Positions 29,730 to 49,022 of a stretch of 49,022 nucleotides of DNA are shown here, piece by piece. The notes below the pieces were generated by a model. The model ran no database searches. It had not been told where the DNA came from and saw nothing but the letters and a program-made list of their open reading frames with translations. The translations under genes were made by a program, and so were the position numbers. Source of the stretch: Gemmatimonadota bacterium (GTDB lineage Bacteria; JBHIER01; G020348925); contig CP070758.1 of the NCBI GenBank assembly GCA_020348925.1, positions 3,056,904 through 3,105,925 of the forward strand. Direction: 5' to 3'. The stretch's first letter is position 1, and the number at the start of each line of letters is the position of its first letter.

Positions 29730-31112
29730 ATGATGAAAAAGATGAAGAACATACAGAGAGCGTCCTGGAGTTTGTGGTTTCTGTGCGTCGTATTTGCGAC
29801 CCCTATCTGGGGAGAACCTCAGAGGGATATCGCCGTTACCATATACAATAACAATTTGGCCTTGGTCAGGGATGTCCGACCCCTTTCGATAGAGAGGGGT
29901 ATCGTCGAGGTCAAATTTACCGACGTTGCCTCCCAAATAGACCCAACCTCCGTGCACTTTACGTCCCTGACGGCACCGGAGAGCGTTACGATTTTGGAAC
30001 AGAATTACGAGTATGATCTTGTGAGTCCCAGCAAGATTTTGGAAAAGTATATCGATAAGAGCATCCGGGTCTTCACTGAAGGCGATAAGGTTTTCGAAGG
30101 GATATTGCTCAGTTCCCAGGAGACGCATATCGTCCTTTCGGATCCAGATGGCGGGATCAGAACCCTTCAGGGCACATCTGTTCTGCATATCGAATATCCG
30201 GCGCTCCCGGAGGGATTCATCACCCGCCCGACACTGCTTTGGTTGTTACAAAACGATCGGGCGGGTCGGCATCAGACCGAAGTGAGTTATTTGACGCGCG
30301 GAGTAAACTGGCACGCCGAGTATGTCGCTGTTGTCAATCAGAACGACACACAGCTTGACCTGGGGGGGTGGGTATCGATCGAGAATACATCAGGGGCGAC
30401 TTACGAAGATGCGAAGCTGAAACTCATTGCTGGTGATGTTCACAGGGTAGAGGAGAGGAAACCCACGCCCCTCTACCGGGCCAAAGCCGATCTGGCTGTT
30501 TCAGCAGCTCCCCAATTCGAGGAGAAAGCGTTCTTCGAATATCATATGTATACCCTACAACGACGAGCAACCATCAAAGATAAGCAGATTAAACAGATGT
30601 CCCTTTTCCCGAACGCCCGGGTCGAAGTGACCAAGATCTTCACTTACGATGGAAGGCAGGACGACAAGAAGGTTCGGGTCAACTTGGAATTTCAGAACAG
30701 CTCAGAGGCTGGCTTAGGCCTTCCGCTGCCGAAAGGGAAAGTCCGGGTCTACAAGCAGGATGAGGACGAATCGCTTCAGTTCATCGGTGAAGATCTCATC
30801 GATCACACGCCGAAAGATGAACGGGTCAGGGTTTATCTGGGGAATGCTTTTGATGTCGTCGGAGAGCGAAGTGTTCAAGAGCACGAAAGAATCAGTGATC
30901 GAGTCCGGGAGGAGGAAGTGGAGGTGAAACTGAGAAACCACAAGGATGATGCTATTACGATTATTGTCGTGGAACATCTCTACGGTGATTGGAAAATATT
31001 GATCAGTTCTCATGAATATCGAAAAAAGGATGCAAGGACCATTGAATTTGATGTCCCTGTTCCCAAAGATTCTGAATCCATTGTGACATATAGGGTAAGA
31101 TACACGTGGTAG
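29730..31112 (+). CDS. exported DUF4139 domain protein
   Basis: 460 aa with a signal peptide (about 1-28, ending near WGEPQRD). The mature part starts VTIYNNNLALVRDVRPLSIERG, and the central part with TRGVNWHAEYVAVVNQ matches the DUF4139 family of secreted beta-rich proteins; C-terminal YRVRYTW ends a Mucoidy-inhibitor-A-like domain. It starts 12 bp after valS and may be read through from it, although the functions are unrelated. No enzyme motif is recognisable. It lies just before the giant surface proteins and may be exported with them. Confidence 0.82.
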   Translation: MMKKMKNIQRASWSLWFLCVVFATPIWGEPQRDIAVTIYNNNLALVRDVRPLSIERGIVEVKFTDVASQIDPTSVHFTSLTAPESVTILEQNYEYDLVSPSKILEKYIDKSIRVFTEGDKVFEGILLSSQETHIVLSDPDGGIRTLQGTSVLHIEYPALPEGFITRPTLLWLLQNDRAGRHQTEVSYLTRGVNWHAEYVAVVNQNDTQLDLGGWVSIENTSGATYEDAKLKLIAGDVHRVEERKPTPLYRAKADLAVSAAPQFEEKAFFEYHMYTLQRRATIKDKQIKQMSLFPNARVEVTKIFTYDGRQDDKKVRVNLEFQNSSEAGLGLPLPKGKVRVYKQDEDESLQFIGEDLIDHTPKDERVRVYLGNAFDVVGERSVQEHERISDRVREEEVEVKLRNHKDDAITIIVVEHLYGDWKILISSHEYRKKDARTIEFDVPVPKDSESIVTYRVRYTW

Positions 31113-31192: not shown

Positions 31193-34100
31193 ATGGTACG
31201 AAGGATATGTTTCGGGGGTCTCCTCCTTTTGTTTCTCATCCCTTTTCGATCTCTCTGCGCTCAAGAAGCGACGTTGACGGTCCTGCCCGGATCAGGTGAG
31301 CGCGGTACGTCGGGAAATGGGGTTGAGATCGCCTTGGAAAATGACGGAAATCTGCAGCGTATTTTTTTCAATATACAGTTTGATCCGAACATTCTCACTG
31401 TCACTTCAGCGCAACCAGGTCCGCGCATTGACCTTGAAGTTGGTCTGGGATTTAACTGGAGCAGGCCGGAGTCAGGGACCGTCCGGGTTGCTCTCACCAC
31501 TGTTTCCGGGGTGCTCGTACCTCCCGGTGATGGAGTCATTGCGACCGTCTACTTCGAGGTTTCAGAGGATGCTCCTGTTGAACCCTCTCCGCTGACACTG
31601 TCTGGGGTCACGTTGTATGAAAGCGTGAGTCAGCTTGTGCCTGCGACTCTGGTGAACGGGCTCTTTTCGGTCTTCCTGTCCCCTCATCTTGGTGTGTCAG
31701 AAGATGGGCACGATTTCGGGGGTGTCTTAGTCGGTTCCTCAAATACGTGGACCCTGACGGTTTCAAATGCTGGCACTGATACACTGTTCGTGGACGGCTT
31801 GACGTCGTCCCACTCGGAATTTGACCTTGAGCTTCCGAGCTTTCCACAAGTTCTGATGCCGGACGAGAGTTTTGACGTCATTGTCACATTTACGCCCACC
31901 GAGATGGCCGCGGTGGCCGGATCCCTGCTGATCTTGAGTAACGATCCTGACGACACCGAATTCGCACTGCCTCTTTCGGGTGAAGGAATTTTACCGGATA
32001 TCGCCCTGTCACACAGTAGTTACGACTTCGGCAACGTTCCCTTGGCTTCGGCAGTCGAGTGGATATTCACCATTTACAACGAAGGCACAGCTCCGCTGCT
32101 CGTAACGGATGTTTCGACCGATCACCCGGCCTTTTCCGTCCTCTCACCGAACTTCCCTCAGCTTATCGGTGAGGGCGACAGTCTCGAAGTGACCGTCGCC
32201 TTTCAAAGCGAGACAGAGGGAGCGGAATCGGCAACGCTGACTGTGCGCAGCGCGGATCCTGATGAGGGCACACTCAGGATCTCACTGTCGGCTGAGGCGG
32301 TGAAGATGCCGGATATTGAAGTGGCGGACACAAGCCATGATTTTGGGCAGCTGCTCGTCCAAACTTCCTCCGAGTGGGTGTTGGGGATCACGAATGCCGG
32401 GAGTGAGCAATTGATCATTTCTCGCATTGAGTTCGACAGTGCCGATTTTCTCGTGATCTCACACGCCTTCCCGCAGTTTTTACCGGCTGGTGAGCGGCTT
32501 GATATCACCATCATGTTTACCCCTTCGGTGGTGGGGATCATATCGGCCCAGGCGACGATTGTGAGCGACGATCCTGATGAGGAGAATGTGATTGTATCCC
32601 TCTCCGGAGAAGGTGTTGCTCCAGATATCGCCCTCTCGGCGGCAGGTCATGATTTCGGTGGGGTGATCGTCGGCGACTCCGAAGAATGGGTTCTGACCAT
32701 CTCAAACGATGGGAGCGGGCCGTTAACGGTCAATTCGGTATCTTCAGACCATTCGGACTTCAGCGTGACATCGCCTTCATTTCCCCAGATGGTGGCCATA
32801 GGCGAAAACATTGACGTTACGATCACTTTTGAACCGACGGGACAGGGGACAGAATCGGCCACGCTCACGGTCTCCAGTAATGATCCCGATGAACCATCAG
32901 TGAGGCTTTCACTGGACGGCGAAGCGCTGGTTCCGGATTTGGAGGTATCAGCTCTCAGCTACGATTTTGGGGATGTTCTTATTGACAGTCTGTCCGTCTT
33001 GACGTTGGTCTTGACAAACGTCGGAACAGGCCCTGTAACGATTGCGGAAGTAGAAACGGGACATCCGGATGTGAGTGTCGCGTCCCCTTCCTTCCCTCGA
33101 ACCATTGAGGTTGGGAATTCTGTAAACCTCATACTTCATTACGTCCCAACCAGTCGGGGCTCGTTGGCGACCCAGTTGATCATTCGCTCGAACGATCCCA
33201 GTGAAGGGACGATGACTCTTGAACTCACCGGGATCGGAGCTCCCCCCATAACTCTATTGATCGAAAGGATAACGGGTGAACCCGGGGAACACAATCTGAC
33301 GATTCCGATAACTCTGGACAATGTCGTCCCTGTCGCCCACGCTGAATTTTCGATCCACTATGATTCGGCGATTTTGACCGTGACGGATGTGACACAATCT
33401 GGGCGAGGGGCCGACATGGGAACGTTCAGTTGGAGCGAGATTCATCCTGGCCAGATCGTTGTCCTTCTGTCCGATTTTAGCGGCCAGGTCATTCCTTATG
33501 GGATCGGTCCTATCGCGGAGCTGAGCGTGACGGTGTCGGAGTTGGCTCCACCGCGGACGATTTTTTTCACGTTCGCAGGGTTGGCATTTTTCGATGCATT
33601 CGGTCTGCCCTTCGAATCGAGGGCCCTCGATGGTCTCTTCACAGTCCTGGTCGAAGAGATTGCACTGCCGATCACTGCATATGACTTCGGGGAGGTCGGT
33701 GTGGCTCTTGCGGAAAGCTGGCCGATGCTGATCCAGAATGTGGGAACTCAGGAGCTCATCATCGACAGCACGATCTCGGACAATCCCGATTTCACCGTTA
33801 CGAGCCCTGTTTTTCCCGTGAGTATCCCTCCCTCTGGGAATATCGCGGTGACGGTCGTTTTCACCCCTTCAACTCTGGGCGAGAGAGTGGGCCACCTGAC
33901 CATCGCGAATAGCGATCCGGATGAGGGACAGGCTGTGGTCACGCTGAGGGGTGAAGGAACGGCGGTGGCTGTTCTGGAAGTTGGCGGTGGGTCGGGGGAG
34001 GCAGGGAGCACCGGCAACCTGATCGAAGTTCTTCTTCATAACAAGAGGGACGTCTTCGGATTTGAGTGTGTCCTGACGTTCGATGCGGAGAAACTTTCGG

Positions 34101-36544
34101 TGGCGCAGGTTGTCCCCACCGACCGGTCCGAACCCCTGGGTCTTTTCAGCTGGACAACGCCGACGTCAGGACAGGTACGAATCGTGATTACGAGTATCGG
34201 TGGCGCTTTCATACCTCCTGGTGATGGATCGGTCGCCGATGTGTCCGTCAGTGTGGCTCAGGGTGCTGTGGTGGGCGAGGTTTCGATTTTTGTGAGTGGT
34301 GTGCAGGCCTTTGACTCGGACGGTGATCCCCTTGTATCATCGGGCATCGGCGGATCGTTCATGATAACCGGTGCGGATATTGACCTGAGTGAGATGAGCC
34401 ATGCCTTCGGGAATGTGGCCGTGGGCGACTCGGGATTGTGGCGGATGCTTCTGTTCAATGTGGGAACGTCCCCCTTAACCCTGAGTGGTATGACGAGCGA
34501 CAACCCGGCCTTCACTGTCACTGGACCGGAGTTTCCCCACATCATTCCCGCCGGTGATAGCCTGGGTGTGAATGTTTTCTTTGTTCCGACCGAGCCGGGA
34601 GCGGTGGTGGGGAGTTTGGTCGTGGCCAACAATGATCCCGATGAAAGTATCCTGACCGTTCTTCTCACGGGTACCGGGACCGTCCCGGATATCTCCGTCC
34701 CTGTTCGGGAGTATTCGTTCGGGAGCGTCGGTCTGGGTCAGTCACAGGAATGGCTCTTGACCCTTTTAAATCGGGGTTTGAGCGACTTGAGGATTTTTGG
34801 AATTTCGACGGACAGATCCGAATTCGAGGTGGCCTGGCCGAGAGATTTTCCTCAGATCGTGATTCCTGGAGGGAGTCTTGGCGCGATCATCCGTTTTGTT
34901 CCGATCGATACAGGTCTGACCACAGGCACGCTGGAGGTGCGAAGCAATGATCCCGATGAACCGTCGTTGCTCATACAGCTCTCCGGTGAAAGCGAGGCTC
35001 TGGTTCCTGATATTGTGATCTCCTCGGGAGATCATGATTTCGGCAGCGTGGCTGTGGGGGGTTCGGCGGACTGGGTTTTTACGATTTCCAACGCTGGAAT
35101 GATGGCTTTAACCGTTCAGTCCGTCGCTCCCAGGACAGCGGAATTCTCAATCGTGTCGCCCCTATTTCCTCGGAGCGTCCAACCTGGAATGAGTATTTCG
35201 GTCGTCGTTCTCTTTTCGCCATCGTCCTTCGGTCCCCAGCAGGATACTCTGACGATCACGAGCGATGATCCCGATGAGGATAGGATAACCCTGCCGGTGC
35301 GCGGGAGTGGGGTATCGGAGACGATTCCAGAGATCACACTCTCGGCCTACAGCCATGATTTCGGGCGCATAGCTGTCGGGCAGACCTTGGATTGGGAGCT
35401 GAGTATTTCGAACGAGGGCACGGACGATCTGACCGTCACGTCGGTTCAATCGAGTCTGTCGGAGTTTTCCGTTGTCTCTCCTCCGTTCCCCCAAACGGTC
35501 CCGCCTGGTGGCATGGTCCCAGTGCTCGTTCGGTTTGCACCGCTGTCCGTGGGAGATAAGGACGGAGTCCTTACGATTTCGAGCAATGACCCGGACGAGG
35601 ATACGATCACCGTTCACATCAGTGGTGAGGGGCTGCCTGCGACCTCAACGCCCAGCATTGCCGTTTCTGCAACCGAGTATAATTTCGGACTCGTACGCGT
35701 CGGGCAGGAGTCCCGGTGGTCCTTTGAAATTTCCAATCCGGGTCTGGCCGACTTGGTTGTGTCTTCTGCTCAGTCGGATCATGCGGACTTTCAGGTCATC
35801 TCACCCGCTTTTCCTGTCACAATCGTCCCCAGCGGTCAGAGGACAGTGGAGGTTGTCTTTGCCCCCTCATCCGAAGGATTGAAAGCAGGAGCGCTTGCCA
35901 TATCGAGCAATGATCCTGACAATCTTAAAATCTATGTTCTTGTGAGTGGCACCGGGCAACGCGTCGTGGGCGTCCAACTCCTCAGTTTCCTATCGCTCTA
36001 TGAGAAGGGGCGGGTGATCGTAACCTGGACCACATCTTCTGATGCCGATCAGACCGAATTTCGCCTGTACCGAAAACGGGACGTCGATCGTCACGCTCAA
36101 GAACTGGCAGTGCAGGGAACGATGACCGGGTCGAATCCTTATCGGTACGTGGATCAGGATGTGGAGCATGAAGGTCTCTATGAGTACCTGCTTGCGTTGG
36201 TCGACGATGGAGGAGAGGAATTGCTTCTCGGTCGCACTTCGACGAATATCGATCACCTCGAACCCTGCGGAATGTCACTTGATCAAAATTATCCCACTCC
36301 CTTCAATCCCGAAACGAAAATAGGGTACACGGTAGCCCGTGGGGGATGGGTCACCCTCGCTGTGTACGACGTGCTCGGACGGCGGGTGAAAACGTTGGTG
36401 GCGCAATCCCAGAAGGCGGGGTATTATTCGGTCGCATGGCAGGGCGACGATGATGACGGTCGGACTGTGCACAGCGGGATTTATATCGCACAATTGGAGA
36501 TCGGAGATCACGTGGAATCGATGAAAATGATGTTTCTCAAGTAA
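31193..36544 (+). CDS. giant secreted protein with cohesin-like and ASH domains and T9SS sorting domain
   Basis: 1783 aa from the ATG at 31193, where a signal peptide (FGGLLLLFLIPFRSLCAQ) starts; AAAGGAG lies about 12 nt upstream. Domain order: cohesin-like 1 (about 31262-31675), five ASH/choice-of-anchor D repeats of about 100 aa, cohesin-like 2 (about 33239-33655), one ASH, cohesin-like 3 (about 33967-34375), five more ASH repeats, a fibronectin-like segment (VTWTTSSDADQTEFRLYRK), and a C-terminal sorting domain (SLDQNYPTPFNPETKIGY to the end). ASH repeats are Ig-like folds known from hydin and ASPM and from bacterial surface proteins. Each has a [SAxxxx]-[HY]DFG core, an NDPDE turn and a GxG end. 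The sorting domain suggests type IX-like export to the surface. Confidence 0.9.
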   Translation: MVRRICFGGLLLLFLIPFRSLCAQEATLTVLPGSGERGTSGNGVEIALENDGNLQRIFFNIQFDPNILTVTSAQPGPRIDLEVGLGFNWSRPESGTVRVALTTVSGVLVPPGDGVIATVYFEVSEDAPVEPSPLTLSGVTLYESVSQLVPATLVNGLFSVFLSPHLGVSEDGHDFGGVLVGSSNTWTLTVSNAGTDTLFVDGLTSSHSEFDLELPSFPQVLMPDESFDVIVTFTPTEMAAVAGSLLILSNDPDDTEFALPLSGEGILPDIALSHSSYDFGNVPLASAVEWIFTIYNEGTAPLLVTDVSTDHPAFSVLSPNFPQLIGEGDSLEVTVAFQSETEGAESATLTVRSADPDEGTLRISLSAEAVKMPDIEVADTSHDFGQLLVQTSSEWVLGITNAGSEQLIISRIEFDSADFLVISHAFPQFLPAGERLDITIMFTPSVVGIISAQATIVSDDPDEENVIVSLSGEGVAPDIALSAAGHDFGGVIVGDSEEWVLTISNDGSGPLTVNSVSSDHSDFSVTSPSFPQMVAIGENIDVTITFEPTGQGTESATLTVSSNDPDEPSVRLSLDGEALVPDLEVSALSYDFGDVLIDSLSVLTLVLTNVGTGPVTIAEVETGHPDVSVASPSFPRTIEVGNSVNLILHYVPTSRGSLATQLIIRSNDPSEGTMTLELTGIGAPPITLLIERITGEPGEHNLTIPITLDNVVPVAHAEFSIHYDSAILTVTDVTQSGRGADMGTFSWSEIHPGQIVVLLSDFSGQVIPYGIGPIAELSVTVSELAPPRTIFFTFAGLAFFDAFGLPFESRALDGLFTVLVEEIALPITAYDFGEVGVALAESWPMLIQNVGTQELIIDSTISDNPDFTVTSPVFPVSIPPSGNIAVTVVFTPSTLGERVGHLTIANSDPDEGQAVVTLRGEGTAVAVLEVGGGSGEAGSTGNLIEVLLHNKRDVFGFECVLTFDAEKLSVAQVVPTDRSEPLGLFSWTTPTSGQVRIVITSIGGAFIPPGDGSVADVSVSVAQGAVVGEVSIFVSGVQAFDSDGDPLVSSGIGGSFMITGADIDLSEMSHAFGNVAVGDSGLWRMLLFNVGTSPLTLSGMTSDNPAFTVTGPEFPHIIPAGDSLGVNVFFVPTEPGAVVGSLVVANNDPDESILTVLLTGTGTVPDISVPVREYSFGSVGLGQSQEWLLTLLNRGLSDLRIFGISTDRSEFEVAWPRDFPQIVIPGGSLGAIIRFVPIDTGLTTGTLEVRSNDPDEPSLLIQLSGESEALVPDIVISSGDHDFGSVAVGGSADWVFTISNAGMMALTVQSVAPRTAEFSIVSPLFPRSVQPGMSISVVVLFSPSSFGPQQDTLTITSDDPDEDRITLPVRGSGVSETIPEITLSAYSHDFGRIAVGQTLDWELSISNEGTDDLTVTSVQSSLSEFSVVSPPFPQTVPPGGMVPVLVRFAPLSVGDKDGVLTISSNDPDEDTITVHISGEGLPATSTPSIAVSATEYNFGLVRVGQESRWSFEISNPGLADLVVSSAQSDHADFQVISPAFPVTIVPSGQRTVEVVFAPSSEGLKAGALAISSNDPDNLKIYVLVSGTGQRVVGVQLLSFLSLYEKGRVIVTWTTSSDADQTEFRLYRKRDVDRHAQELAVQGTMTGSNPYRYVDQDVEHEGLYEYLLALVDDGGEELLLGRTSTNIDHLEPCGMSLDQNYPTPFNPETKIGYTVARGGWVTLAVYDVLGRRVKTLVAQSQKAGYYSVAWQGDDDDGRTVHSGIYIAQLEIGDHVESMKMMFLK

Positions 36545-36957
36545 GTGATACCGGAAATTTTTTGCCGAAATTTGGACGGGCAGCCGGACTGTCCGGGTGG
36601 AAAAGGGAGGTTCAATCATTCTCAGAGCGAAATGACAAATTAATTTTTTTTCATTTTTCTATTGACAAAGTGCATTAAAAATAGTAAAATTATAACTTTG
36701 TACATATAATGGTATTTTTGTCGCTCACTGTTTTCTAATAATCGACCAGTACACGAATGACGGTATGCTTGAGAGAGAGAAAACATAATGGAACATACGG
36801 TCGGAACACAGGGATCAACTTCATGGGAGGTGAGCGTCCCTAGACGGTGTCATTATTGATGAAAAAAATTCGATTTCAGGAAGGCAATACAGATAAAAAG
36901 TGCTTTCTCAATATGAGTTTATAATGTTTCACCCTTCTTAAAATGGGAGTATTCATC
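36545..36957 (+). other. 413-bp leader between the two giant genes
   Basis: Right after the stop a palindrome CCGGAC-T-GTCCGG (36584-36596) stands without a following T run, so it is a poor terminator. A strong promoter is at 36662-36690 (separate entry), giving a leader of about 260 nt. A modest hairpin GGGA/TCCC lies at about 36824-36839. I recognise no known riboswitch. A 23-codon frame (36788-36859) has only a weak GAGAG site. Confidence 0.5.
36662..36690 (+). promoter_or_regulatory. sigma70-type promoter of the second giant gene
   Basis: TTGACA (36662-36667) and TAAAAT (36685-36690) are 17 bp apart and match 11 of 12 consensus bases in an AT-rich setting. A second TATAAT at 36705-36710 has no matching -35 box. 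Confidence 0.75.
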
Positions 36958-39900
36958 ATGATACGAAAGAGTACATTGTATCTCTTCGCACCTCTGTTTT
37001 TTATGGTACTATGGGTGGGAATTGGTTACGCTCAGGACCCGACCCCTCTCCCTGAAATCCATATTGTCGAGATGAGCCATGATTACGGCTACGCGAAAGT
37101 CGGACATATTCAGGAGTGGGTGATGCGTGTCGCAAATCGCGGATTGGGTCAGTTGATCGTTGCCGACATTGTATCGAACAACCCGGACTTTTTCATCACC
37201 GACCCTGAGAGTTTTCCCCAGGATGTGAGCTATTCGGGGGGGAGAAATCCTGATTCTCTGTTTGTGACTGTAGCATTCTCGCCGTCCCTTTACGGAGCGA
37301 TTGAGGGTACTCTCACCGTCATCAGTAACGATACTGATGAGGGCACGTTGCACGTAGCCCTCGGCGGTATCGGGGCGAGTCCTGAGATTGAGGTTTCTCA
37401 TGTCAGTCACGACTTCGGGGATGTTCTTCTGGGCGATTTTTCATCGTGGATTTTTACCCTGTACAACGGCGGTCCTGTTGATCTCTATGTCTCGAATGTT
37501 TTCTCAAATGATCTTGATTTCATTGTCTCCGATTCCTTTCCAAACACGATTCCCACTGGCGATTCGCTTGACGTGACAGTCATCTTTGAACCATCGGTTG
37601 AGGGAGGCGCCTTCGCAACGTTGACGATTCAAAGTGATGATGTCAATAATCAAATTCTTTTCATAAACGTGGTGGGTGTCGGAACGGTCCCACAACCGGA
37701 TATCGTACTGTCGAGTACCTTTCATAATTACGGCAGTTTTTTGATCGGGGAATCACTCGGATGGCAATTGAACATATCCAACACGGGCCTGGCTGCATTG
37801 ACGGTTCACTCGATCCATTCGGATCACGGCGATTTTTCGATTGTATCACCGGCGTTCCCGCAAACAATACTCTCTGGAGGAGACATGGATGTCGAGGTCT
37901 CCTTTACCCCTTCCACGGTAGGAGCAATTGTGGGGACGTTGGATGTGAGCAGTAATGATCCGGATGAGGGGTTGCTCGAAATTGTCGTGGTGGGAAGTGG
38001 TATTGCCGGGCCTTCGCCTGATATCGAAGTGTCTCTGCCCAGCTATAATTTTGGGTCCGTCGTTGTCGGAAGCACTCGCGTCGTGGAGGTCTGCGTGTCC
38101 AATCTGGGGACGGCGTATCTTGTTGTCGACAGTATCGTCTCCAACATGCCTGCTTTTTCGGCTGACCCGACGCTGTTTACTGTGAGTCCGGGGGGCTCGG
38201 ATTGTTTTTCGATGAGATTTACACCGAACGCTTTGGGTATTATCTCAGGGATTGTCACCATCCACAGTAACGATCCTGATGAAAGTCAAGTGAACATATT
38301 TGTGAACGGCACTGGGGTCCCTGTATCTGAGCCTGATATTCAACTCTCTGCCGGCAGTCACCAGTACGGGGAAGTTCTGGTTGGAACATCTTCACTCTGG
38401 ACGCTCACTATAACCAACGTGGGTATTCTCGATCTGACCGTTTTCTCAATCACCTCGAATCACGCGAATTTCACGGTCATTTCACCCGTTTTTCCCCAGA
38501 CAGTATCGTCGGGTCAGGATCTCAATGTGACGGTCGCTTTTCAGCCAACGTCCGAGGGTCCAAAATCGGCCACGCTGACGATTTACACCAATGATTCTGA
38601 TGAAGAGATTCTGACCGTACCCCTGAATGGCAACGGCGTTCTGATTGCTGAGGCGGATATCGAGCTGTCCGAAGACAGCCATGGTTTCGGCAATGTGGAA
38701 GTGGGCAGTTCTGCCAACTGGACCCTGACGATTACGAATGTGGGTGCCATGCCTCTGACCGTCAACTCGGTCGTTTCGGATCGGAATGATTTTACGGTTG
38801 TTTCCCCTGCGTTTCCTCAAATACTGGGGGCAGGCGGTCACGTCGATGTTGTAATAAACTTCTCACCGTTGAGTGTGGGGGCAAAGCCCGGAGTGCTGAC
38901 CATCACGAGCGATGATCCTGATGAAGGCACTCGCACGGTTCTCCTGAGCGGAACGGGTCTGCCGATATCAGGCGAAGGCCCTGATATTTCAATTTCGGCC
39001 AACAGCTACGATTACGGAACCGTCGTGATGGGCACGTCGGAGGACTGGATTGTGCAGATATACAACATGGGCGTGGCCGATTTGGTGGTGAGTTCAATTA
39101 CGTCGAATAATGCTGATTTTGATGTGGTCTATCCACCCTTTCCTCAGACCATTCCTCCCTCCGGACACGTGGGTGTTGTTCTATCCTTCTCCCCATCGTC
39201 AGCGACCTACATCACAGGTACCCTGACCATATTTTCCAACGATCCTGATGAGGGGACCGTTTCTGTCTATTTGAGCGGGTCGGGCATACCGGGGGAGGGG
39301 CCTGACATTGAGCTCCTGACGGTCTTGGATTTTGGTGGGGTCATCCTCGGAAATACGGCCGATAGAACGTTGACGGTGTGCAATGTGGGAAGCGATCCAC
39401 TCGTCCTGTTCTCAATGGATGCTGACTTAGGCGTATTTGGCATTGCTTTGCCGACTTTCCCCGATACCATCCCCGCGACAGGATGTGTTGAGGTGACGGT
39501 CACATTCACACCGGACAGCCCTGAACCCGTTCTCGGCCATCTGACGATTTCCAGCAACGATCCGGATGAGGGTGTCCTGTCCGTGACGCTCACCGGTCGG
39601 GGTATTTCGGAGGGTGTCGGGGATATCCAGTTGTCGGCCTTACAACACGATTACCGTTTTGTCATGTTGGAGAGTTCGGCGGATTGGGTGTTGGATATTG
39701 AGAACATGGGCTCGACAACCTTAACCATCCAGTCGATCACTTCGGACAACAGCGATTTTGTGATCACAACCCCGGCTTCCTTCCCACAGCTTGTTTCTCC
39801 GGGACATCATCTGATCGTTGTGGTCACGTTTACCCCCTCATCTCTCGGTGCCATCACCGGGATGTTGTCCGTTCAGAGCAATGATCCTGACGAAAGCCTC

Positions 39901-42900
39901 ATTGAAGTTGCTCTCAGTGGTCGAGGCGTCATCGCGCCACTTCCGGATATTGAGGTGTCGGAGTCGACGTATGATTTTGGAGAGGTTATCGTGGGCACCA
40001 CCACCGAATGGTCTATGCTCATTTACAATCGGGGCAGCGATTCTTTAATCGTCTATTCGGCGACCCCGGGACATTCTGATTTCAATGTTCTTTCTCCCAT
40101 ATTTCCCCAGAAGATCGCCCCCGACGATTCATTGACCGTTACAGTTGCCTTCACACCCTCTTCCGCAGGGGTGGTGATCGGCAACCTCGTCATCGTGAAT
40201 GATGATCCTGATGAGGACGAATGGACGCTATCGGTTGCAGTGCGTGGCACGGGAATTCTTGTTCCTGATATATCCTTGTCCAAGATCCGGCATGACTTCG
40301 GTGATGTTTCCATCGGCCACTTCGGCGACTGGGAACTCCTGATTTACAACTTCGGCTCTGTGAATCTCAGCGTCGATGACGTCTCTTCGAATCACGGCGA
40401 TTTCACCGTCACGTTTCCAACATTTCCCCAGGAGATACCACCGGGAGAACACCTTCATGTCGTGGTCACATTTGTGCCGACATCCGAGGGCTTGATTACC
40501 GGAACATTGACGGTGCACAATGACGATCCGGATGAGAGCCTCTTAACGGTGACACTTCTGGGAACCGGAATCGTGGTTCCCACGCCTGACATAAATTTCT
40601 CCACAATCACGGTCGATTTTGGGAGCATTGCCATCGGCGAATCGACTGAGAGAACATTTACCATATACAACGTGGGTACGGCCGATCTGACACTCTTCGC
40701 CGTTGTCTCGGAGCATCAGGACTTTACGATCACGGAGCCAGCATTTCCCGTTGTGCTTGGGCCTTCGCACAGTCTTGAGGTTACTGTGGGCTTTGCTCCC
40801 CTGGCAGAGGGAATGAAAAACGGCAGTCTCACCGTGAACAGCAGTGATCCGGATGAGGGAAGCGTATCGGTCTTTGTTTCGGGTGTGGCCCTGCCGCTGG
40901 GAACGTGGTCGTTGGCCCTCACTCTTCAGAGCAGCAATATTGTTGTTGCCCCGGTGACTTTAGGTGTCGGAGCTCATCCGGACGGTTCGATCTGCTTCAA
41001 TCCCGATCTTGATACGCCCAGTCCACCCCCAGCACCCAGCACTCCTTTCGATGCATATATCCCGTGCATCGGCCTGTTCACCCGGCTGGCGACGGATATC
41101 CAGAGTTCTGACAGCACAACGCTGGTGTGGACCATCAATACCCACGGAACGGGAGGCGTGATCAGCTGGAATCCGCAAAATTTGCCCTCAGGCGGTATCT
41201 TCACTCTCAATAATGTTGTCGATATGAGATACCGCACTTCCATGGACTTCTTCAGCGGCGCACAACTGACACTTGTCTATACAAGATTGGAACCGGGGGT
41301 GAATGTCTCTGTGACCGACCACGACTTTGGAGAGGTGAAGCTGGGCAAGTCACGGGATTGGGTGTTTACTGTCCGAAGCGTTGGAGATGTTTCGCTGGTG
41401 CTCAGTGATGTCCTTTCCGACAACCAAGATTTTGAGGTTTCCTATCCGCTCCAGTTCCCTCAAGCCGTTTCGATGGGGGAGAGTTTGGATGTTGTCGTCA
41501 CATTTCGACCGTCTGTTGTTGGGCCGAGATCGGGCGTCTTAACCCTGGTCACGAACGACCTTGGCGAACCCATGGTTCCCCTGACCGTTATCGGCACCGG
41601 TGTCTATCCCGGTGCGTGGCAGATTCCGCTGATTCTGCAGAGCACCAATCTGGGCATTGCGCCGACAACCCTCGTCTGTGGTGTCGACCCCGAGGCGGGC
41701 AACGACTTCGATTCGCAGGTGGATCAGCCGAGTCCTCCCCCTGTGCCAGGAGTGGAATTCGAGGCCTATTTTCCGGCAACCGGACTCTTCCCGCGCTTAT
41801 CCACGGATATTCGGAGTTCGTATGATCTCATCGTGACATGGCACATCGTCACGGCCGGGACCGGTGGAACGATCACCTGGAATCCTCTCACCTTGCCCCC
41901 TGACGGCAGCTTCACTATGAACGAGACCATGAACATGAGATTCGTTAATTCCCTCACGTTTCAGAGCAGTGATACCCTGACCATTGTCTATCGGGTCGAG
42001 GCCATTCCGGAAATGACCTGCTCGGTTCTGTTGCAAGGCTATTACACCATGGGAAACCGGGACAGCGTCGTCATCGAGCTCAGGGATTCCAGAATTTCTA
42101 TCGCCCACAGCTTCAAGGTGTTCCCGGATCAAGAGGGGTTGGTCCAGCTGCCGGTTCCTGAGGGAAGCTACTATGTCCTCGTGGACCACCGCAACCATTT
42201 GCCGGTCATGACCAATGCCCGCTATTCTTTTGCGCCGGGTATGGTCACCATCGACTTTACGTCACCGGGAGTCGCCTACAAACCAGAGCCCGGTTCGCCG
42301 GATCCTGTCTATACAGAGAACGATGGCAGAAGATCGTTACGAGGAGGGGATGCCAACGGTGATGGTGTGGTCAATATACTCGATTTCGCCCTTTTCGCCA
42401 GAGCGAATGGAAGCACCGAGAGCCCCCCGTCGTCCAATTGGGACAGGAGAGCCGATTTCGATGGAACCAGAGTCATCAACATCTTCGATTTTCAAGTCTT
42501 CGGACTGAATAATGGGATGGTGACCTACGTCCCCTACTGGTCACCACCCTCGAGTAGGGGAACAGCCTATCCCGGTCCTTCAGCGAAAGCCACGGACGAA
42601 GACCCTGTGGATTTTTCCTTCAGTGCGAACACCAATAATCCGAGCCAAGGGGATGCCATCGCGGTCGATGTCGTCCTGACTCCGACCAGCGAGCTTACGA
42701 TTTTTGGGATTGACGCCTATGTGCAGTACGACCCGGATGTTTTTGAGATCCCCGTTATCGAGGACTATCTCACGCCCGCGGCCACTTACGGCTGGGCTTT
42801 TGAACACGTCAACATGAAATATGATACGAGTGCGGTTATCGAGACGCTCTACGCCGTGCAATACAGCAAGGGGACGACCTCAGGTCCGGGCTGGCTTCTC

Positions 42901-43377
42901 AACATGGAAGGTGTGCCGTACCGCCTGACATTACGGGTCAAGGACGATGCGCCGGGTGGTGAGACCGAAATATCCTTCCGGCCGCAATTTGCCAATGTGC
43001 TGGATGATCAACTGCAACCAATTCCTGTGAATGTAAGCAGCTATACTTTTACGATCACTGTGACAGGTGTCTTCGATCCGTCTTCTCCGGTTCTCCCCTC
43101 GGAGTATACCTTGTCTCAGAACTATCCCAATCCTTTCAATCCTGAGACGGAGATTCAGTACGCCTTGCCTGAGGCTGGATTTGTGCGATTGGATGTTTAC
43201 AATATTTTGGGTCAGAAAATCGTGACACTCGTGGAGGAGGAGCAGGAGGCCGGATATAAGTCTGTCACGTGGAGCGGTCAGGATGAGAGGAACCTTGACC
43301 TCTCAAGCGGCATCTACTTTTACACCTTGAGGGTTGGCCGTTTCACGGATACAAGGAAAATGATTCTGACAAAATAG
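36958..43377 (+). CDS. giant secreted ASH protein with dockerin, cohesin-like and T9SS sorting domains
   Basis: 2139 aa from the ATG at 36958 (GGGAG 8 nt upstream; the in-frame ATG at 36943 contains that site). A signal peptide is followed by twelve ASH domains (starts such as PEIEVSHVSHDFGDV), then an unnamed domain (40900-41295), a thirteenth ASH domain, a second copy of the unnamed domain (41611-42000), a beta-rich linker, and a type I dockerin (42346-42519: DANGDGVVNILDFALFARAN and ADFDGTRVINIFDFQVFGLN, both with calcium-loop residues). Then comes a cohesin-like domain (about 42601-43065), and the sorting domain (LSQNYPNPFNPETEIQYALP to the end). The neighbour at 31193 has cohesin-like domains, so the two may bind each other. 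Export by SecA followed by a type IX-like system is inferred from the sorting domain only. Confidence 0.9.
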   Translation: MIRKSTLYLFAPLFFMVLWVGIGYAQDPTPLPEIHIVEMSHDYGYAKVGHIQEWVMRVANRGLGQLIVADIVSNNPDFFITDPESFPQDVSYSGGRNPDSLFVTVAFSPSLYGAIEGTLTVISNDTDEGTLHVALGGIGASPEIEVSHVSHDFGDVLLGDFSSWIFTLYNGGPVDLYVSNVFSNDLDFIVSDSFPNTIPTGDSLDVTVIFEPSVEGGAFATLTIQSDDVNNQILFINVVGVGTVPQPDIVLSSTFHNYGSFLIGESLGWQLNISNTGLAALTVHSIHSDHGDFSIVSPAFPQTILSGGDMDVEVSFTPSTVGAIVGTLDVSSNDPDEGLLEIVVVGSGIAGPSPDIEVSLPSYNFGSVVVGSTRVVEVCVSNLGTAYLVVDSIVSNMPAFSADPTLFTVSPGGSDCFSMRFTPNALGIISGIVTIHSNDPDESQVNIFVNGTGVPVSEPDIQLSAGSHQYGEVLVGTSSLWTLTITNVGILDLTVFSITSNHANFTVISPVFPQTVSSGQDLNVTVAFQPTSEGPKSATLTIYTNDSDEEILTVPLNGNGVLIAEADIELSEDSHGFGNVEVGSSANWTLTITNVGAMPLTVNSVVSDRNDFTVVSPAFPQILGAGGHVDVVINFSPLSVGAKPGVLTITSDDPDEGTRTVLLSGTGLPISGEGPDISISANSYDYGTVVMGTSEDWIVQIYNMGVADLVVSSITSNNADFDVVYPPFPQTIPPSGHVGVVLSFSPSSATYITGTLTIFSNDPDEGTVSVYLSGSGIPGEGPDIELLTVLDFGGVILGNTADRTLTVCNVGSDPLVLFSMDADLGVFGIALPTFPDTIPATGCVEVTVTFTPDSPEPVLGHLTISSNDPDEGVLSVTLTGRGISEGVGDIQLSALQHDYRFVMLESSADWVLDIENMGSTTLTIQSITSDNSDFVITTPASFPQLVSPGHHLIVVVTFTPSSLGAITGMLSVQSNDPDESLIEVALSGRGVIAPLPDIEVSESTYDFGEVIVGTTTEWSMLIYNRGSDSLIVYSATPGHSDFNVLSPIFPQKIAPDDSLTVTVAFTPSSAGVVIGNLVIVNDDPDEDEWTLSVAVRGTGILVPDISLSKIRHDFGDVSIGHFGDWELLIYNFGSVNLSVDDVSSNHGDFTVTFPTFPQEIPPGEHLHVVVTFVPTSEGLITGTLTVHNDDPDESLLTVTLLGTGIVVPTPDINFSTITVDFGSIAIGESTERTFTIYNVGTADLTLFAVVSEHQDFTITEPAFPVVLGPSHSLEVTVGFAPLAEGMKNGSLTVNSSDPDEGSVSVFVSGVALPLGTWSLALTLQSSNIVVAPVTLGVGAHPDGSICFNPDLDTPSPPPAPSTPFDAYIPCIGLFTRLATDIQSSDSTTLVWTINTHGTGGVISWNPQNLPSGGIFTLNNVVDMRYRTSMDFFSGAQLTLVYTRLEPGVNVSVTDHDFGEVKLGKSRDWVFTVRSVGDVSLVLSDVLSDNQDFEVSYPLQFPQAVSMGESLDVVVTFRPSVVGPRSGVLTLVTNDLGEPMVPLTVIGTGVYPGAWQIPLILQSTNLGIAPTTLVCGVDPEAGNDFDSQVDQPSPPPVPGVEFEAYFPATGLFPRLSTDIRSSYDLIVTWHIVTAGTGGTITWNPLTLPPDGSFTMNETMNMRFVNSLTFQSSDTLTIVYRVEAIPEMTCSVLLQGYYTMGNRDSVVIELRDSRISIAHSFKVFPDQEGLVQLPVPEGSYYVLVDHRNHLPVMTNARYSFAPGMVTIDFTSPGVAYKPEPGSPDPVYTENDGRRSLRGGDANGDGVVNILDFALFARANGSTESPPSSNWDRRADFDGTRVINIFDFQVFGLNNGMVTYVPYWSPPSSRGTAYPGPSAKATDEDPVDFSFSANTNNPSQGDAIAVDVVLTPTSELTIFGIDAYVQYDPDVFEIPVIEDYLTPAATYGWAFEHVNMKYDTSAVIETLYAVQYSKGTTSGPGWLLNMEGVPYRLTLRVKDDAPGGETEISFRPQFANVLDDQLQPIPVNVSSYTFTITVTGVFDPSSPVLPSEYTLSQNYPNPFNPETEIQYALPEAGFVRLDVYNILGQKIVTLVEEEQEAGYKSVTWSGQDERNLDLSSGIYFYTLRVGRFTDTRKMILTK

Positions 43378-43625: not shown

Positions 43626-46600
43626 ATGAGACAACTGCGCGCTGACAATCAGAGAAAAGTATTATTCTTTCTTCTGGGTATCGGTATATTCATTGGAGGT
43701 TTCGTTTCTTCCTCTCCGGCCAATGATGCTGTCATTGGTGTGAGCAAAGAGATAAGTCCAGGTCAAATCTATGAAGAAGCGTGTTACGAAATTCCGAACG
43801 TTGCAACGGTTACCCTCGATCTTGAGGGAATTTGTCCGAGGGGCAAACCTGCGGATATTATGCTCGTGATCGACATCTCGTCAACGATGCTGAACGACTC
43901 CCGTATTGACAGTGCGAGATCTGCCGCGAAAGCATTTGTCGATTTGATGAGGGATGTGGATTGGGCAGGTTTGGTGGCGTTCGGCGACAATGCTACCCTG
44001 GAATTGGGTCTGACCGCCATGGATGGAGCCGGAAAAACTCTCCTGAAGGGGGCTATCGACGGGCTTTTGGTCGGGGGGTTCACCAATATTGGGGATGCCA
44101 TACGTGTTGCCAATCATGAGATAGCCGATATCGGAAGAGGGGGGGATACACTGGGGGTCCAGATTCTCCTTTCCGACGGATTGCCCAACAGACCGCTCGG
44201 TCTTCCCAATCCTCCGGGGCCTCAAGGATATGCAATTATGGCGGCAGACAGTGCTCGAATGTTGGGGATTCAGATCGAGACAATCGGTTTGGCCCTGGAA
44301 AGTTTTCCTTTCGGGATACAATTGCTTCAAGATATTGCCGACACGACCGGAGGGCACTATCACGACTCGCCGACACCTGACTCCCTGCGCAGTATTTTTA
44401 TCAATATCGCCCAACCGGAAGACTGCAATCCACTAACAAATATAACGATTACGGATGTTCTTCAGCCCCATATTCATTTTGAGGGGAATTCTTCGATCGC
44501 GCCCAATGCCATTATCCCCAATTCTGAGGACGGAACGACAAGGTTGGTATGGGCTCTTGCGACACTGGATGTGGAGGAGACGTGGACCGTCTCTTTCGAT
44601 GTGAGCTCCGAAATGGTTGGTACGAACATATTGTCGAATGTAACGGAGAGCTCAAAGGTCTCGTACTCGACCAACGGCAGCATACGGGATACCCTCTTCC
44701 CAGTTGTGACGTTGAACGTGGATCCCTGCCCTCTGCCCTTCATCGAGGTGACGAAAACCGATGAGGATGTCAATGGTGATATTTTGGAGCCTGGAGACGC
44801 CCTTCTCTATACGATCGTCCTGTCCAACACGGGTACTCTCGATCAAGGGGATAACGACGGAAACGAGTTTGAGGATGTACTGCCAGCCCATACCATCTAT
44901 GACGGGACCTATGTGCCGACCGCATCCTCAGGAGTGGTCTCTTACAATGCAGGAATGAATCGCATAGACTGGAACGGTACGGTGCCCGCCGGCGGGAGCG
45001 TGACCATCACCTTCCGAGTTCTGCTGGATTCTCCCTTGGACAACGGGACGATCATCTCGAATCAGGGGACTGCATACTGGGACAGCGACGGCAATGAAGT
45101 CAATGATGCCGAGGAGCCCTCCGATGATCCGGACACACCGGAGGATGACGATCCGACGGAGGCAGAAGTGGTATCCGCTCCGCTGCTCAACATCACAAAG
45201 ACGAGTTCCCCGGATCCTGTGGAAGCGGGAGGGACATTGACGTACACCATAACGGTGGAGAATGTGGGCAACGCGGCTGCGACAGGGGTGACGGTGGTGG
45301 ATAATTATGATGAGAGTAAGTTTATGGTGACGGATGCGGATGGGGGAGCCGTAGGAGGCGGTCAGATTGTGTGGGATGGAGGTCTGGTGATTCCGGCCGG
45401 GGGAAAGCTTGAGTTTACGGTCATTGGGGAGGTGGCCTCGCCGTTGCCGGATGGGACGGAGATAGGAAATGCGGTGAGTGTGGTCCACGACGGGGGAGAG
45501 GTACCACCTGTGGAGATCCGCACGGAGGTGGAGAGTGCGCCGGAGCTGGTCATCACCAAGGTGGATGCGCCTGACCCTGTTGAGGCGGGTGGTACGTTGA
45601 CCTACACGATACGGGTGGAGAATGTGGGCAACGCGGATGCGACGGGTGTGACAGTGACGGACGATTATGATGAGAGTGTTTTTAGCGTGACCGATCCTGA
45701 TGGAGGGGTTGTGGGGAGCGGAGAGATTGTGTGGGATGGGGGGTTGGTGATACCGGCGGGCGGATTTTTGGAGTTTACGGTGGTGGGCGATGTGGCCTCG
45801 CCGCTGGCGGACGGGACGACGTTTGACAACACGGTGAGTGTGACCTACAGCGAGGGGACGGTGCCGCCGGAGACGATCAGTACGGAGGTGGAGAGTGCGC
45901 CGGCGCTGGTCATCACGAAGGAGGACGATCCAGATCCGGTGGATGCTGGCGGCGTGTTGACCTACACGATAACGATAGAGAACACCGGCAACGCTGATGC
46001 GACGGGAGTGACGCTGACAGATGATTATGATGAGAGTGTTTTTAGCGTGACCGATCCTGATGGAGGGGTTGTGGGGAGCGGGGAGATTGTGTGGGATGGC
46101 GGATTGACAATACCTGCGGGAGGGTCGATCTCCTTTACGGTGGTAGGCGATGTGGCCTGGCCGCTGGAGAACGGAACGACGTTTGACAACACGGTGAGCC
46201 TGACCTACAACGAGGGGACGGTGCCGCCGGAGACGATCAATACGACGGTCACCAGCGCACCAATAATTACTGCGACGAAAACAGATATAGATGTCAATGG
46301 TGGCGATTTGGAGCCCGGAGATGATCTGGACTATAAGGTGACGATCAAGAACACAGGCAATGAAAAGGCAGAGGGACTGACGTATATTGATGAGATCCCT
46401 GCCCATACACATGACCTCTCGTTTGCATTCGGGGTTTTGCCGGATCTGGGAACGACGAACGAATCCACCCCGGAGGAAGTCATCATCTCCGGGATAACGG
46501 TGAATGTCGAGGATTCCGTCATCATTGTCTTCAGGGTGACAGTGGACGATACTGTCGGGGCGGATGTGGATGAAATATCGAATCAAGGGGTGGTCACGAA

Positions 46601-49022
46601 TATTCCCCGTGCCGAGGATGAGCTCACGGACGATCCTGACGTCCCGGGTGCCCACGATCCCACCGTGACCCCTTTGGTTGCAAGTGCATTTATTGAGGCC
46701 TACATGGAAGTTGAAGTTGTTGGCGGTGGCGATCTTGTGCCAGGAGGTCTCCTGAGATATACGATCACCATTGTGAACATTGGCAATCGGGGTGCTGCGA
46801 ATCTCGATTACACCAATCCTATACCTGAGTACACGAGCTATGTCGATGGCAGCCTGGTGGCAAGCGCAGGGACTCTTACGGCAGGCGATCCGATTCGGGT
46901 CGTAGGTTTTTACAGTCAGCCCGGTGTCGACATCGAGATCGCTTATGAGGTGGTGGTGGACAGTCAGGTCCCCGCGGGTGTCGATGAGATTGTGAACCAG
47001 GGTCTGGTGGAAAATGTTCCCAATCCAGGTACTGAACCGACCGATTATCCGGTCACGCCTGACGACGATGATCCGACGATCGTCCCGTTGATGGCAGCTC
47101 CCCTTATCGAGGTGACTAAGGTCGATGTTGACGTCAACGGCGGCCTCTTCGTCCAAGGAGATGTTCTTCAATATGTGGTGACAATTACCAATGATGGCAA
47201 TCAGCATGCTGGAGATCTGACCTTCCTTGATCAGAGGCCGGAACACACGCACAGTTTGACGATATTGAGTTATCCTCCGGATGCTTCGGATGCCTTCTCA
47301 GGACCGGATGAGGTGATTATTTCCGGAATCGATGTCGCTGCCGGAGATTTTGTGACCATCGTCTTTCAGGTTACCCTGGACGATGTTATCCCGGTGGGTG
47401 TGATGGAGATTGCGAACCAGGGTTTTGTGGAGAATATTGTCTCTGACGACGCAGGACCTGTTGATGAGCCGACAGACGACCCTGCGACACCGCTTCGGGA
47501 CGATGATCCGACCATCACCCCAATCGGGGCTCACATATTCTGTATTGATTACACCGACGGCACGCCTGAAGATTTTCTCATGGGTGATCCGAGAGATCCG
47601 GACCCGTCGAACGATCTCTATGCCGTGGGATTTTACAATCCTTTTGCTGCCGCGAGGCTGGTCTCAGTCGCCTTTCAGTGGTATGATCCCGGCAGTGTCG
47701 TTTTGCGGGTCTACCTGGGTTCTGAGGAAACCTGTCCTGAGTGCGGCTCCTTGGCACCTGGGGTGAACCCACTGGGCGACCTTATTCGTGAGATCGGGGG
47801 CGGTGATTTTGTCGGGAACTGGCAGTGGGAGGAGGTGGATATTGAAGAGTGTGTTATTATACCGCCCAAACGCTGCTTCTATCTGGTGTGGCAGATCCAA
47901 TCGAGCGGAAAGCCCAGAATACTGGGTGATGCCGGTCACACCGAGTCCCATTCGTGGTACTATAACTTTGAGCGTGGTGAATGGAAATGCTTTCCCGGCT
48001 ATGAGTATATGGCCAGAGTGTGCCTCGACTATATGCCGGACTGTGTGGAGATCCGTGAACCGGATATCACCTGGTCGCATCCGTACCGGGATGGGTATCC
48101 GTGTGTGTGCGATGACTACACGGTCGAGGCGGTCTTTCACAATGATTGTCCTGAGGACAGGTCCCTGAGTGTCTCCTTTTTCGAGGCACCCTGGGGTCTC
48201 TTTATGGCACCGCCTATTGGCATGGGCGCCTATTGTATAAAGGATGTGGCCGTACCGGGCCGAGGTTCGGGAACGGCTTTATGCGAATGTGAGTATCATC
48301 ACGATCCAGATCTGCACAATTGGTGGGCCCGCAATATTGTAGTGGCCTGGAGTGGTAAGGAGTGGGATGAGGTGGGGGAGTTCTGCCTGGGGGATGTGAC
48401 GCGATTCGCTCGACGGTGCCGGATGACAATCTGGCCGGACGGGCCGTGGGACAAGGAGCCTGTCAGATGGGGGCTGGCGCCCATCACCATACCTGTGCAC
48501 AACGAGCATACCGAGGAGATGCGGTTCGAGCTTTCGGTCGTCGATCTGCCGGACTATTGGCGAGCCTTTTTAAGTTGGACGCAGGGGACGTTGTCTCCGG
48601 CTGAAACGCGAAATGTGTATTTAACAGTATTTCCCGATGGCCCGGAGCCGACTGAGCCCGTTGTTCTTACGGTGAAGGCGTTCAAGTGCAACGGGGAGTG
48701 GGGTGAGGTCGAGATCGAGTTCATGCCGTATCCGAAGCACTTCTACCTCGGACCTGATGATCGGCCTGTCCAACCGGTGCATGTGGAGCGGCTGCAGTGG
48801 AGCCCGCGGTATCCGTGCGAGAACATGCCGTACGATGTTTGGGTGACGGTGGTCAACGACGGGCCCAACAGCGCCTATCCCAAGATCAGCTTCGGTCTGG
48901 CGGAGTGGGGTTTCTTCTTCCCGTCCATTGAGGGTTCTGTGTACGACACGGTCCTGTGGGGCGGCATCGGAGGGTTTGCCCGTCAGGTGGTGGCCCCGTA
49001 TCATTACCAGACGCCGTGGTTC
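43626..49022 (+). CDS. giant secreted von Willebrand A / DUF11-repeat protein, 3-prime end beyond window
   Basis: At least 1799 codons, open to the window end. The ATG is placed by GGAGGT 5 nt upstream. Signal peptide about 1-33. The vWA domain (about 77-255) has the metal-binding DISST (83-87, with Thr in the last position of the usual DxSxS), GGFTNIGDAI and LLSDGLPN, so it probably still binds a metal. A series of DUF11-type beta domains follows (motifs VTKTDxDVNG, GDxLxYTIxxxNTGN, PAGGxxxFTVxG), including three almost identical 120-aa copies encoded by 45181-46260. After about residue 1300 the chain changes to a cysteine- and tryptophan-rich part with no recognised family. An adhesion or surface-structure role is likely by analogy with such proteins; the sorting domain expected at the end is not in view. 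Confidence 0.88.
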   Translation, partial: MRQLRADNQRKVLFFLLGIGIFIGGFVSSSPANDAVIGVSKEISPGQIYEEACYEIPNVATVTLDLEGICPRGKPADIMLVIDISSTMLNDSRIDSARSAAKAFVDLMRDVDWAGLVAFGDNATLELGLTAMDGAGKTLLKGAIDGLLVGGFTNIGDAIRVANHEIADIGRGGDTLGVQILLSDGLPNRPLGLPNPPGPQGYAIMAADSARMLGIQIETIGLALESFPFGIQLLQDIADTTGGHYHDSPTPDSLRSIFINIAQPEDCNPLTNITITDVLQPHIHFEGNSSIAPNAIIPNSEDGTTRLVWALATLDVEETWTVSFDVSSEMVGTNILSNVTESSKVSYSTNGSIRDTLFPVVTLNVDPCPLPFIEVTKTDEDVNGDILEPGDALLYTIVLSNTGTLDQGDNDGNEFEDVLPAHTIYDGTYVPTASSGVVSYNAGMNRIDWNGTVPAGGSVTITFRVLLDSPLDNGTIISNQGTAYWDSDGNEVNDAEEPSDDPDTPEDDDPTEAEVVSAPLLNITKTSSPDPVEAGGTLTYTITVENVGNAAATGVTVVDNYDESKFMVTDADGGAVGGGQIVWDGGLVIPAGGKLEFTVIGEVASPLPDGTEIGNAVSVVHDGGEVPPVEIRTEVESAPELVITKVDAPDPVEAGGTLTYTIRVENVGNADATGVTVTDDYDESVFSVTDPDGGVVGSGEIVWDGGLVIPAGGFLEFTVVGDVASPLADGTTFDNTVSVTYSEGTVPPETISTEVESAPALVITKEDDPDPVDAGGVLTYTITIENTGNADATGVTLTDDYDESVFSVTDPDGGVVGSGEIVWDGGLTIPAGGSISFTVVGDVAWPLENGTTFDNTVSLTYNEGTVPPETINTTVTSAPIITATKTDIDVNGGDLEPGDDLDYKVTIKNTGNEKAEGLTYIDEIPAHTHDLSFAFGVLPDLGTTNESTPEEVIISGITVNVEDSVIIVFRVTVDDTVGADVDEISNQGVVTNIPRAEDELTDDPDVPGAHDPTVTPLVASAFIEAYMEVEVVGGGDLVPGGLLRYTITIVNIGNRGAANLDYTNPIPEYTSYVDGSLVASAGTLTAGDPIRVVGFYSQPGVDIEIAYEVVVDSQVPAGVDEIVNQGLVENVPNPGTEPTDYPVTPDDDDPTIVPLMAAPLIEVTKVDVDVNGGLFVQGDVLQYVVTITNDGNQHAGDLTFLDQRPEHTHSLTILSYPPDASDAFSGPDEVIISGIDVAAGDFVTIVFQVTLDDVIPVGVMEIANQGFVENIVSDDAGPVDEPTDDPATPLRDDDPTITPIGAHIFCIDYTDGTPEDFLMGDPRDPDPSNDLYAVGFYNPFAAARLVSVAFQWYDPGSVVLRVYLGSEETCPECGSLAPGVNPLGDLIREIGGGDFVGNWQWEEVDIEECVIIPPKRCFYLVWQIQSSGKPRILGDAGHTESHSWYYNFERGEWKCFPGYEYMARVCLDYMPDCVEIREPDITWSHPYRDGYPCVCDDYTVEAVFHNDCPEDRSLSVSFFEAPWGLFMAPPIGMGAYCIKDVAVPGRGSGTALCECEYHHDPDLHNWWARNIVVAWSGKEWDEVGEFCLGDVTRFARRCRMTIWPDGPWDKEPVRWGLAPITIPVHNEHTEEMRFELSVVDLPDYWRAFLSWTQGTLSPAETRNVYLTVFPDGPEPTEPVVLTVKAFKCNGEWGEVEIEFMPYPKHFYLGPDDRPVQPVHVERLQWSPRYPCENMPYDVWVTVVNDGPNSAYPKISFGLAEWGFFFPSIEGSVYDTVLWGGIGGFARQVVAPYHYQTPWF
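45181..46260 (+). repeat. three tandem 360-bp repeats inside the vWA/DUF11 gene
   Basis: Three in-frame copies with a period of exactly 360 bp (120 codons): 45181-45540, 45541-45900 and 45901-46260. Copies 2 and 3 are nearly identical over blocks such as 45661-45720 versus 46021-46080, where I count one difference in 60 bases. Copy 1 is more diverged. This points to recent duplication or gene conversion. Confidence 0.85.

Follow-up and report, generated by a model that had tools for sequence, protein, structure and literature searches.

Large cohesin–dockerin systems are regarded as plant-fiber machines of Gram-positive anaerobes. In this study, we analyzed a 49,022-nucleotide stretch of DNA (the window) from a Gemmatimonadota bacterium (GCA_020348925.1, contig CP070758.1), and in particular two adjacent genes at positions 31193–43377 that encode giant cohesin-containing proteins, referred to here as protein 1 and protein 2. 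We propose that protein 1 is probably one scaffoldin of a genome-wide, non-cellulosomal cohesin–dockerin system that would form a mainly proteolytic complex at the cell surface.

The largest cellulosome system described, that of Pseudobacteroides (Bacteroides) cellulosolvens, comprises 78 cohesins, 31 scaffoldins and 212 dockerin-containing open reading frames (ORFs), 197 of which are putatively carbohydrate-degrading (PMC5590126). The genome examined here resembles it in having multi-cohesin scaffoldins, dockerin-bearing scaffoldins and about 200 dockerin proteins, but differs in that its cargo consists largely of peptidases and β-propellers and in its type IX secretion system (T9SS)-type tails. 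Dockerin numbers are comparable, whereas cohesins are more numerous by our own profiles (125–135) and about equal by the Pfam cut-off (73). The cellulosome-like complex proposed for Candidatus Stygibacter (Cloacimonadota) has a single 3,755-amino acid scaffoldin, the carbohydrate-binding modules (CBMs) CBM2/CBM3 and a few dockerin enzymes, with dockerins on peptidases S8 and C25 and on the glycoside hydrolases GH18/GH57 (PMC8542988). Both systems have a T9SS-type C-terminal domain on the scaffoldin and dockerins on peptidases, whereas here there are 77 cohesin and 190 dockerin proteins, and no CBM was reported in the cohesin-only proteins scanned.

Non-cellulosomal cohesin–dockerin proteins also occur in Archaeoglobus fulgidus and in ANME archaea, where scaffolds reach about five cohesins and ABC-transporter binding proteins are common cargo (PMC9012536). 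As in these archaea, the present system is non-cellulolytic and can place cohesin and dockerin within one protein, and the best PDB match of the genome's cohesin profile is an A. fulgidus cohesin (2xdh, 3.3e-15); the differences lie in its much larger scale and in T9SS secretion. A literature search that fell short of most subscription papers found no such system described in Zixibacteria or Latescibacteria. The kind of system is known, but its scale, cargo and lineage are new.

Protein 1 and its three cohesins

The features of protein 1 are as follows.

31193–36544, + strand: protein 1, a non-catalytic scaffoldin-like surface protein (1,783 amino acids from the likely ATG)
31193–31264, + strand: probable Sec signal peptide, read off the translation
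31295–31651, + strand: cohesin 1 (PF00963 and our own window-free profile, 73 bits)
31682–33241, + strand: HYDIN/ASH/DUF1573-type immunoglobulin (Ig)-like repeat array, limits approximate (PF22544)
33272–33616, + strand: cohesin 2 (window-free profile, structural model and structure matches)
33992–34333, + strand: cohesin 3 (PF00963 and our own profiles)
34358–35965, + strand: second Ig-like repeat array, limits approximate (Pfam scan)
36272–36541, + strand: C-terminal T9SS-type sorting/FlgD_ig tail (PF13860, 33.4 bits; SprA encoded in the genome)

The ORF is open from a GTG at 31106, and its likely start is the ATG at 31193 (MVRRICFGGLLLLFLIPFRSLCAQ). PF00963 matches three stretches of the protein with a score of 87.6 bits (cut-off 24.1), and a profile trained on the rest of the genome with the window excluded (the window-free profile) gives 73, 89 and 87 bits for cohesins 1, 2 and 3, respectively. 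This profile leaves the Ig-like repeats of protein 1 unscored and finds no matches in reversed ORFs. The AlphaFold2 model of cohesin 2 has a predicted local distance difference test score (pLDDT) of 95 and shows the nine-stranded jelly-roll of the cohesin fold. Its Foldseek matches include the dockerin-bound type I cohesins 6kge, 6kgf and 6kgc at template-modeling (TM) scores of 0.86–0.89; 2xdh, the non-cellulosomal cohesin of A. fulgidus, aligns at 0.81–0.83. The three domains, which the first-pass annotation had described as cohesin-like, are true cohesins.

Cohesin 2 shares its fold with CaCohA2 (6kgc/6kge), CcCoh (2vn5) and CtCoh (1ohz) at TM scores of 0.79–0.89, but its identity to dockerin-bound type I cohesins is about 19–24%. 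For the dockerin-binding 8-3-6-5 face, the cohesin family columns were tabulated, but at ∼20% identity literature contact residues cannot be placed on the genome's cohesins with confidence. The remainder of protein 1 is dominated by Ig-like repeats (PF22544, 379 bits in 11 stretches across the protein), and the Pfam scan of the protein found no CBM. Ciliary kinship, as might be read from matches to HYDIN, Cep192 and CFAP, was rejected; we read these as the broad ASH-type Ig superfamily. The features of T9SS cargo are present at this locus, namely the FlgD_ig tail of protein 1, a Por_Secre_tail close to the cut-off in protein 2 (26.1 bits versus 27) and the translocon SprA in the genome (708 bits).

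Cohesins, dockerins and cargo across the genome

The genome is 5.04 Mb in one contig (96% complete) and is the only one of its phylum in our comparison set; an RpoB tree groups it, with modest support, close to Zixibacteria and Gemmatimonadota. PF00963 has 81 matches genome-wide, 73 of them above the cut-off, and PF00404 has at least 148, a lower bound obtained by scoring 150 of 525 candidates. Within 0.98 Mb of stretches targeted around cohesin, dockerin and EF-loop matches, our own profiles detect 125 cohesins at ≥40 bits and 134 at 25 bits; the corresponding dockerin counts are 181 and 187, and reversed sequence gives no matches. The genome search for more dockerins that the first-pass annotation had suggested yielded ∼185 by our own profiles. 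The genome contains 271 copies of a strict EF-loop DNA motif and none of its reversed-pattern control. Because some EF-loop matches fall outside the fetched stretches (20 of 89 in a partial list of forward-strand loops), the dockerin counts are lower bounds. In the targeted stretches, cohesins lie on 77 proteins and dockerins on 190, with 35 proteins carrying both modules; two to six cohesins are found in 35 proteins, and protein 1 has three.

These numbers can be set beside those of 27 further genomes in which comparable T9SS tails occur, which have 0–13 cohesin matches and 0–42 EF loops, and of 110 Zixibacteria genomes, which have 0–10 PF00963 matches. Across the 27 genomes, cohesin and EF-loop counts correlate (rho 0.56, p 0.003). 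The second-richest genome sampled, G022 (AlinenSedimentsCore2_bin-0496), has 42 strict EF loops and 7 cohesins, and a smaller system of this kind may exist there.

The architectures fall into distinct groups. The cohesin-only proteins (25 scanned, E ≤ 1e-8) contain HYDIN/ASH Ig, DUF11, PKD and other structural domains, mostly with T9SS tails, and neither enzyme families nor cellulose-binding modules were found among them at this threshold. Proteins with a C-terminal dockerin (61 scanned) include peptidases M14, M28, M20 and M1, β-propellers, lectin-like domains, phosphoesterases and β-lactamase folds, and those carrying both modules include peptidases S8, C1, M64, M6 and M1 and alkaline phosphatases. 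The contrast between structural multi-cohesin proteins and dockerin-tagged enzymes points to a division into scaffoldins and a cargo that is in large part proteolytic. By position, the cohesins cluster as scaffold, before-dockerin and after-dockerin types. Thirty post-dockerin cohesins form a partly separate subfamily between the dockerin and the T9SS tail, with conserved residues of their own; like an X-module, they may partner the dockerin.

Numbers and architecture on this scale resemble those of the largest cellulosomes, and protein 1 is itself a non-catalytic scaffoldin with several cohesins. It is nevertheless highly improbable that this is a true cellulosome of an uncultured cellulolytic bacterium, a reading already largely refuted by the cargo and by the lack of GH9, which is absent from the genome in a search whose positive control worked. 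At E ≤ 1e-22, the only glycoside hydrolases on the 61 C-terminal-dockerin proteins are one GH31 and one GH99, and no cellulose-binding module is among the families reported for the cohesin-only proteins. A search for GH48 was likewise empty, but its control was silent too, and we do not claim its absence.

Dockerin specificity depends on positions 10–11 of each repeat (PMC8063739). V/I-L predominates at these positions of both repeats in the present genome, and both calcium loops are conserved in main-family dockerins. Because all four positions are hydrophobic in 132 of 149 dockerins, the sequences suggest one dominant, symmetric specificity shared by ∼180 dockerins. The cohesins of protein 1 belong to the main cohesin family, and these ∼180 main-family dockerins would be their natural partners. 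Separately, 101 of the 149 main-family dockerins (for example, G000:C1:296775-296912) carry one cysteine at loop 2 position 2 and a second immediately past the last helix; 10 have the first only, none the second only and 38 neither. The second cysteine never occurs without the first, which suggests a disulfide staple.

Several observations weigh against a scaffoldin system of this extent. Our own cohesin counts are more generous than those of Pfam, with its 73 matches over the cut-off, and many cargo domains have no known substrate. In addition, 102 of the 190 dockerin proteins end at the dockerin and show no T9SS tail that would account for their crossing of the outer membrane. By a crude hydrophobicity test, most dockerin-ended proteins do start with a Sec signal peptide (55 of the 71 with ≥350 amino acids). 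A bolder proposal is that this is the largest known cohesin–dockerin network, non-cellulolytic and acting as a proteolytic machine at the surface, in which the tail-less dockerin enzymes cross the outer membrane on T9SS-tailed scaffolds assembled in the periplasm; we regard this as a long shot.

Divergent modules of protein 2

The features of protein 2 are as follows.

36943–43377, + strand: protein 2, a giant Ig-array surface protein with divergent dockerin, divergent cohesin and T9SS tail
37051–40992, + strand: HYDIN/ASH-type Ig-like repeat array, limits approximate (PF22544, 380 bits, 12 stretches)
42346–42510, + strand: divergent dockerin, residues 1802–1856 (PF00404, phmmer)
42631–43029, + strand: divergent cohesin-fold domain, residues 1897–2029 (PF00963, 25.2 bits; Foldseek)
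43105–43374, + strand: T9SS sorting tail, SQNYPNPFNPETEIQY...TRKMILTK (PF18962, 26.1 bits, cut-off 27)

A canonical two-repeat dockerin had been assigned to protein 2. Its position and its identity as a dockerin are borne out, the best PDB matches being dockerins (phmmer, 2y3n_B, 6.9e-5), but the word canonical is too strong because the PF00404 score of 22.5 bits is 0.4 bits below the cut-off of 22.9 and because loop 2 is non-canonical. Two calcium loops of the form DxNxDGxxxxxD are required of a canonical dockerin. Loop 1 (DANGDGVVNILD) conforms, whereas loop 2 (DFDGTRVINIFD) is degenerate, with T and R replacing the usual D/N and G at positions 5 and 6. Both helices follow an FxxF pattern rather than VVNxILG, and neither staple cysteine is present. 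The domain scores 17 bits against the profile of the genome's own dockerins, most of which reach 60–97, and is among the most divergent of them.

The single cohesin-like domain reported for protein 2 is also recovered, by PF00963 at 25.2 bits (cut-off 24.1), and is likewise divergent, scoring only 14.5 bits with the window-free profile. It lacks the TxR...M..F stretch common in the cohesin family, and its fold is less clear than that of cohesin 2 of protein 1: the cohesin-domain half of the model matches cohesin structures (Foldseek TM by target up to 0.78) at an overall pLDDT of 64. An AlphaFold2 model of the contiguous dockerin–cohesin stretch has pLDDT below ∼60 in the dockerin and linker, too poor to judge contact between the domains. 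The dockerin–cohesin unit has no paralog in the genome, and a search of named genomes with the protein 2 C-terminus, in which the T9SS tail dominates the matches, found no ortholog of the unit.

These properties bear on the first-pass annotation's model of a non-cellulosomal surface scaffold built by docking of protein 2 onto protein 1 or, in chains, onto itself. The scaffold itself is well supported, and at far larger scale, by the 81 Pfam cohesins, the dockerins detected genome-wide, the T9SS-tailed scaffolds without an enzyme family at E ≤ 1e-8 and the dockerins on secreted peptidases; the specific pairing is not. Chain formation through binding of the protein 2 dockerin to a protein 1 cohesin, or to the cohesin of another copy of protein 2, would suit adjacent same-strand genes with complementary modules, a loop 1 in which the main family's I-L recognition pair is kept and the recurrence of cohesin–dockerin tandem units in the genome. 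Yet the low profile score and non-canonical loop 2, the replacement of the VVNxILG helix residues by FALFARANG and the 398-base gap between the genes make such a chain improbable, and nearly 200 better dockerins are encoded elsewhere, of which the ∼180 of the main family would suit the protein 1 cohesins better. Because both of its modules are outliers, the pairing of protein 2 with protein 1 is weakly supported. Protein 2 may instead have a private partner, or its dockerin and cohesin may have turned structural.

An alternative for these T9SS bacteria is that the dockerin- and cohesin-like domains are calcium-stabilized structural spacers beside the T9SS tail rather than a docking pair. The order dockerin, cohesin-like domain, T9SS tail recurs in the genome, post-dockerin cohesins are a partly separate, lower-scoring subfamily, and some genomes are rich in cohesins and poor in EF loops (for example, 10 and 1 in G025). 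Because a cohesin–dockerin–cohesin order with a T9SS tail downstream is also found at loci of Zixibacteria (L134) and Marinimicrobia (L084), a spacer role for dockerin–cohesin–tail units stays a serious rival. We still consider it unlikely, since enzyme-free multi-cohesin proteins and dockerins at enzyme C-termini suit docking, the recognition code is conserved and symmetric, and cohesin and EF-loop counts correlate among the 27 genomes.

Proteins 1 and 2 lie directly downstream of a gene for a DUF4139 protein and upstream of a third giant protein (43626–49022) with a VWA domain and DUF11 repeats, the end of which continues beyond the window into masked bases; its best cohesin score is 21.5 bits, under the Pfam cut-off of 24.1. 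The other parts of the window that were scanned encode housekeeping functions (a sigma-54 regulator, a protein kinase, glutamate dehydrogenase, riboflavin genes, SecA and valyl-tRNA synthetase), and the earlier remark that no glycoside hydrolase is nearby holds for the window ORFs scanned. The gap between the protein 1 and protein 2 genes contains a promoter-like TTGACA-17-TAAAAT (11/12) at 36662–36690, and separate transcription is possible; two promoter-like sites were found versus 1.7 expected in shuffles, which is not significant.

A proposed surface complex and its significance

From the domains, folds, counts, architectures, cargo families and the presence of SprA, we infer a binding mode, a pairing of modules, a surface location and a function for the scaffoldin system. 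Protein 1 would be exported via Sec and then via the type IX system, with its C-terminal tail holding it at the surface and its Ig-like arrays spacing the three cohesins off the cell. Secreted enzymes with main-type dockerins, including metallo-, serine and cysteine peptidases and phosphatases, would plug into such cohesins, as would proteins with esterase and β-lactamase folds, β-propeller proteins and lectin proteins. Docking would occur through the calcium-loop helices with their symmetric hydrophobic recognition code, and the resulting surface complex would degrade chiefly proteins and other non-cellulose polymers. Protein 2 would be akin to it, an Ig-array surface protein in which both the dockerin and the cohesin have diverged.

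If this model is correct, the plug-and-socket design has been scaled up independently of cellulose in a deep, nearly unsampled didermal lineage. The genome would then offer a large new supply of orthogonal module pairs, and the route by which tail-less dockerin enzymes reach the surface would become a testable question.

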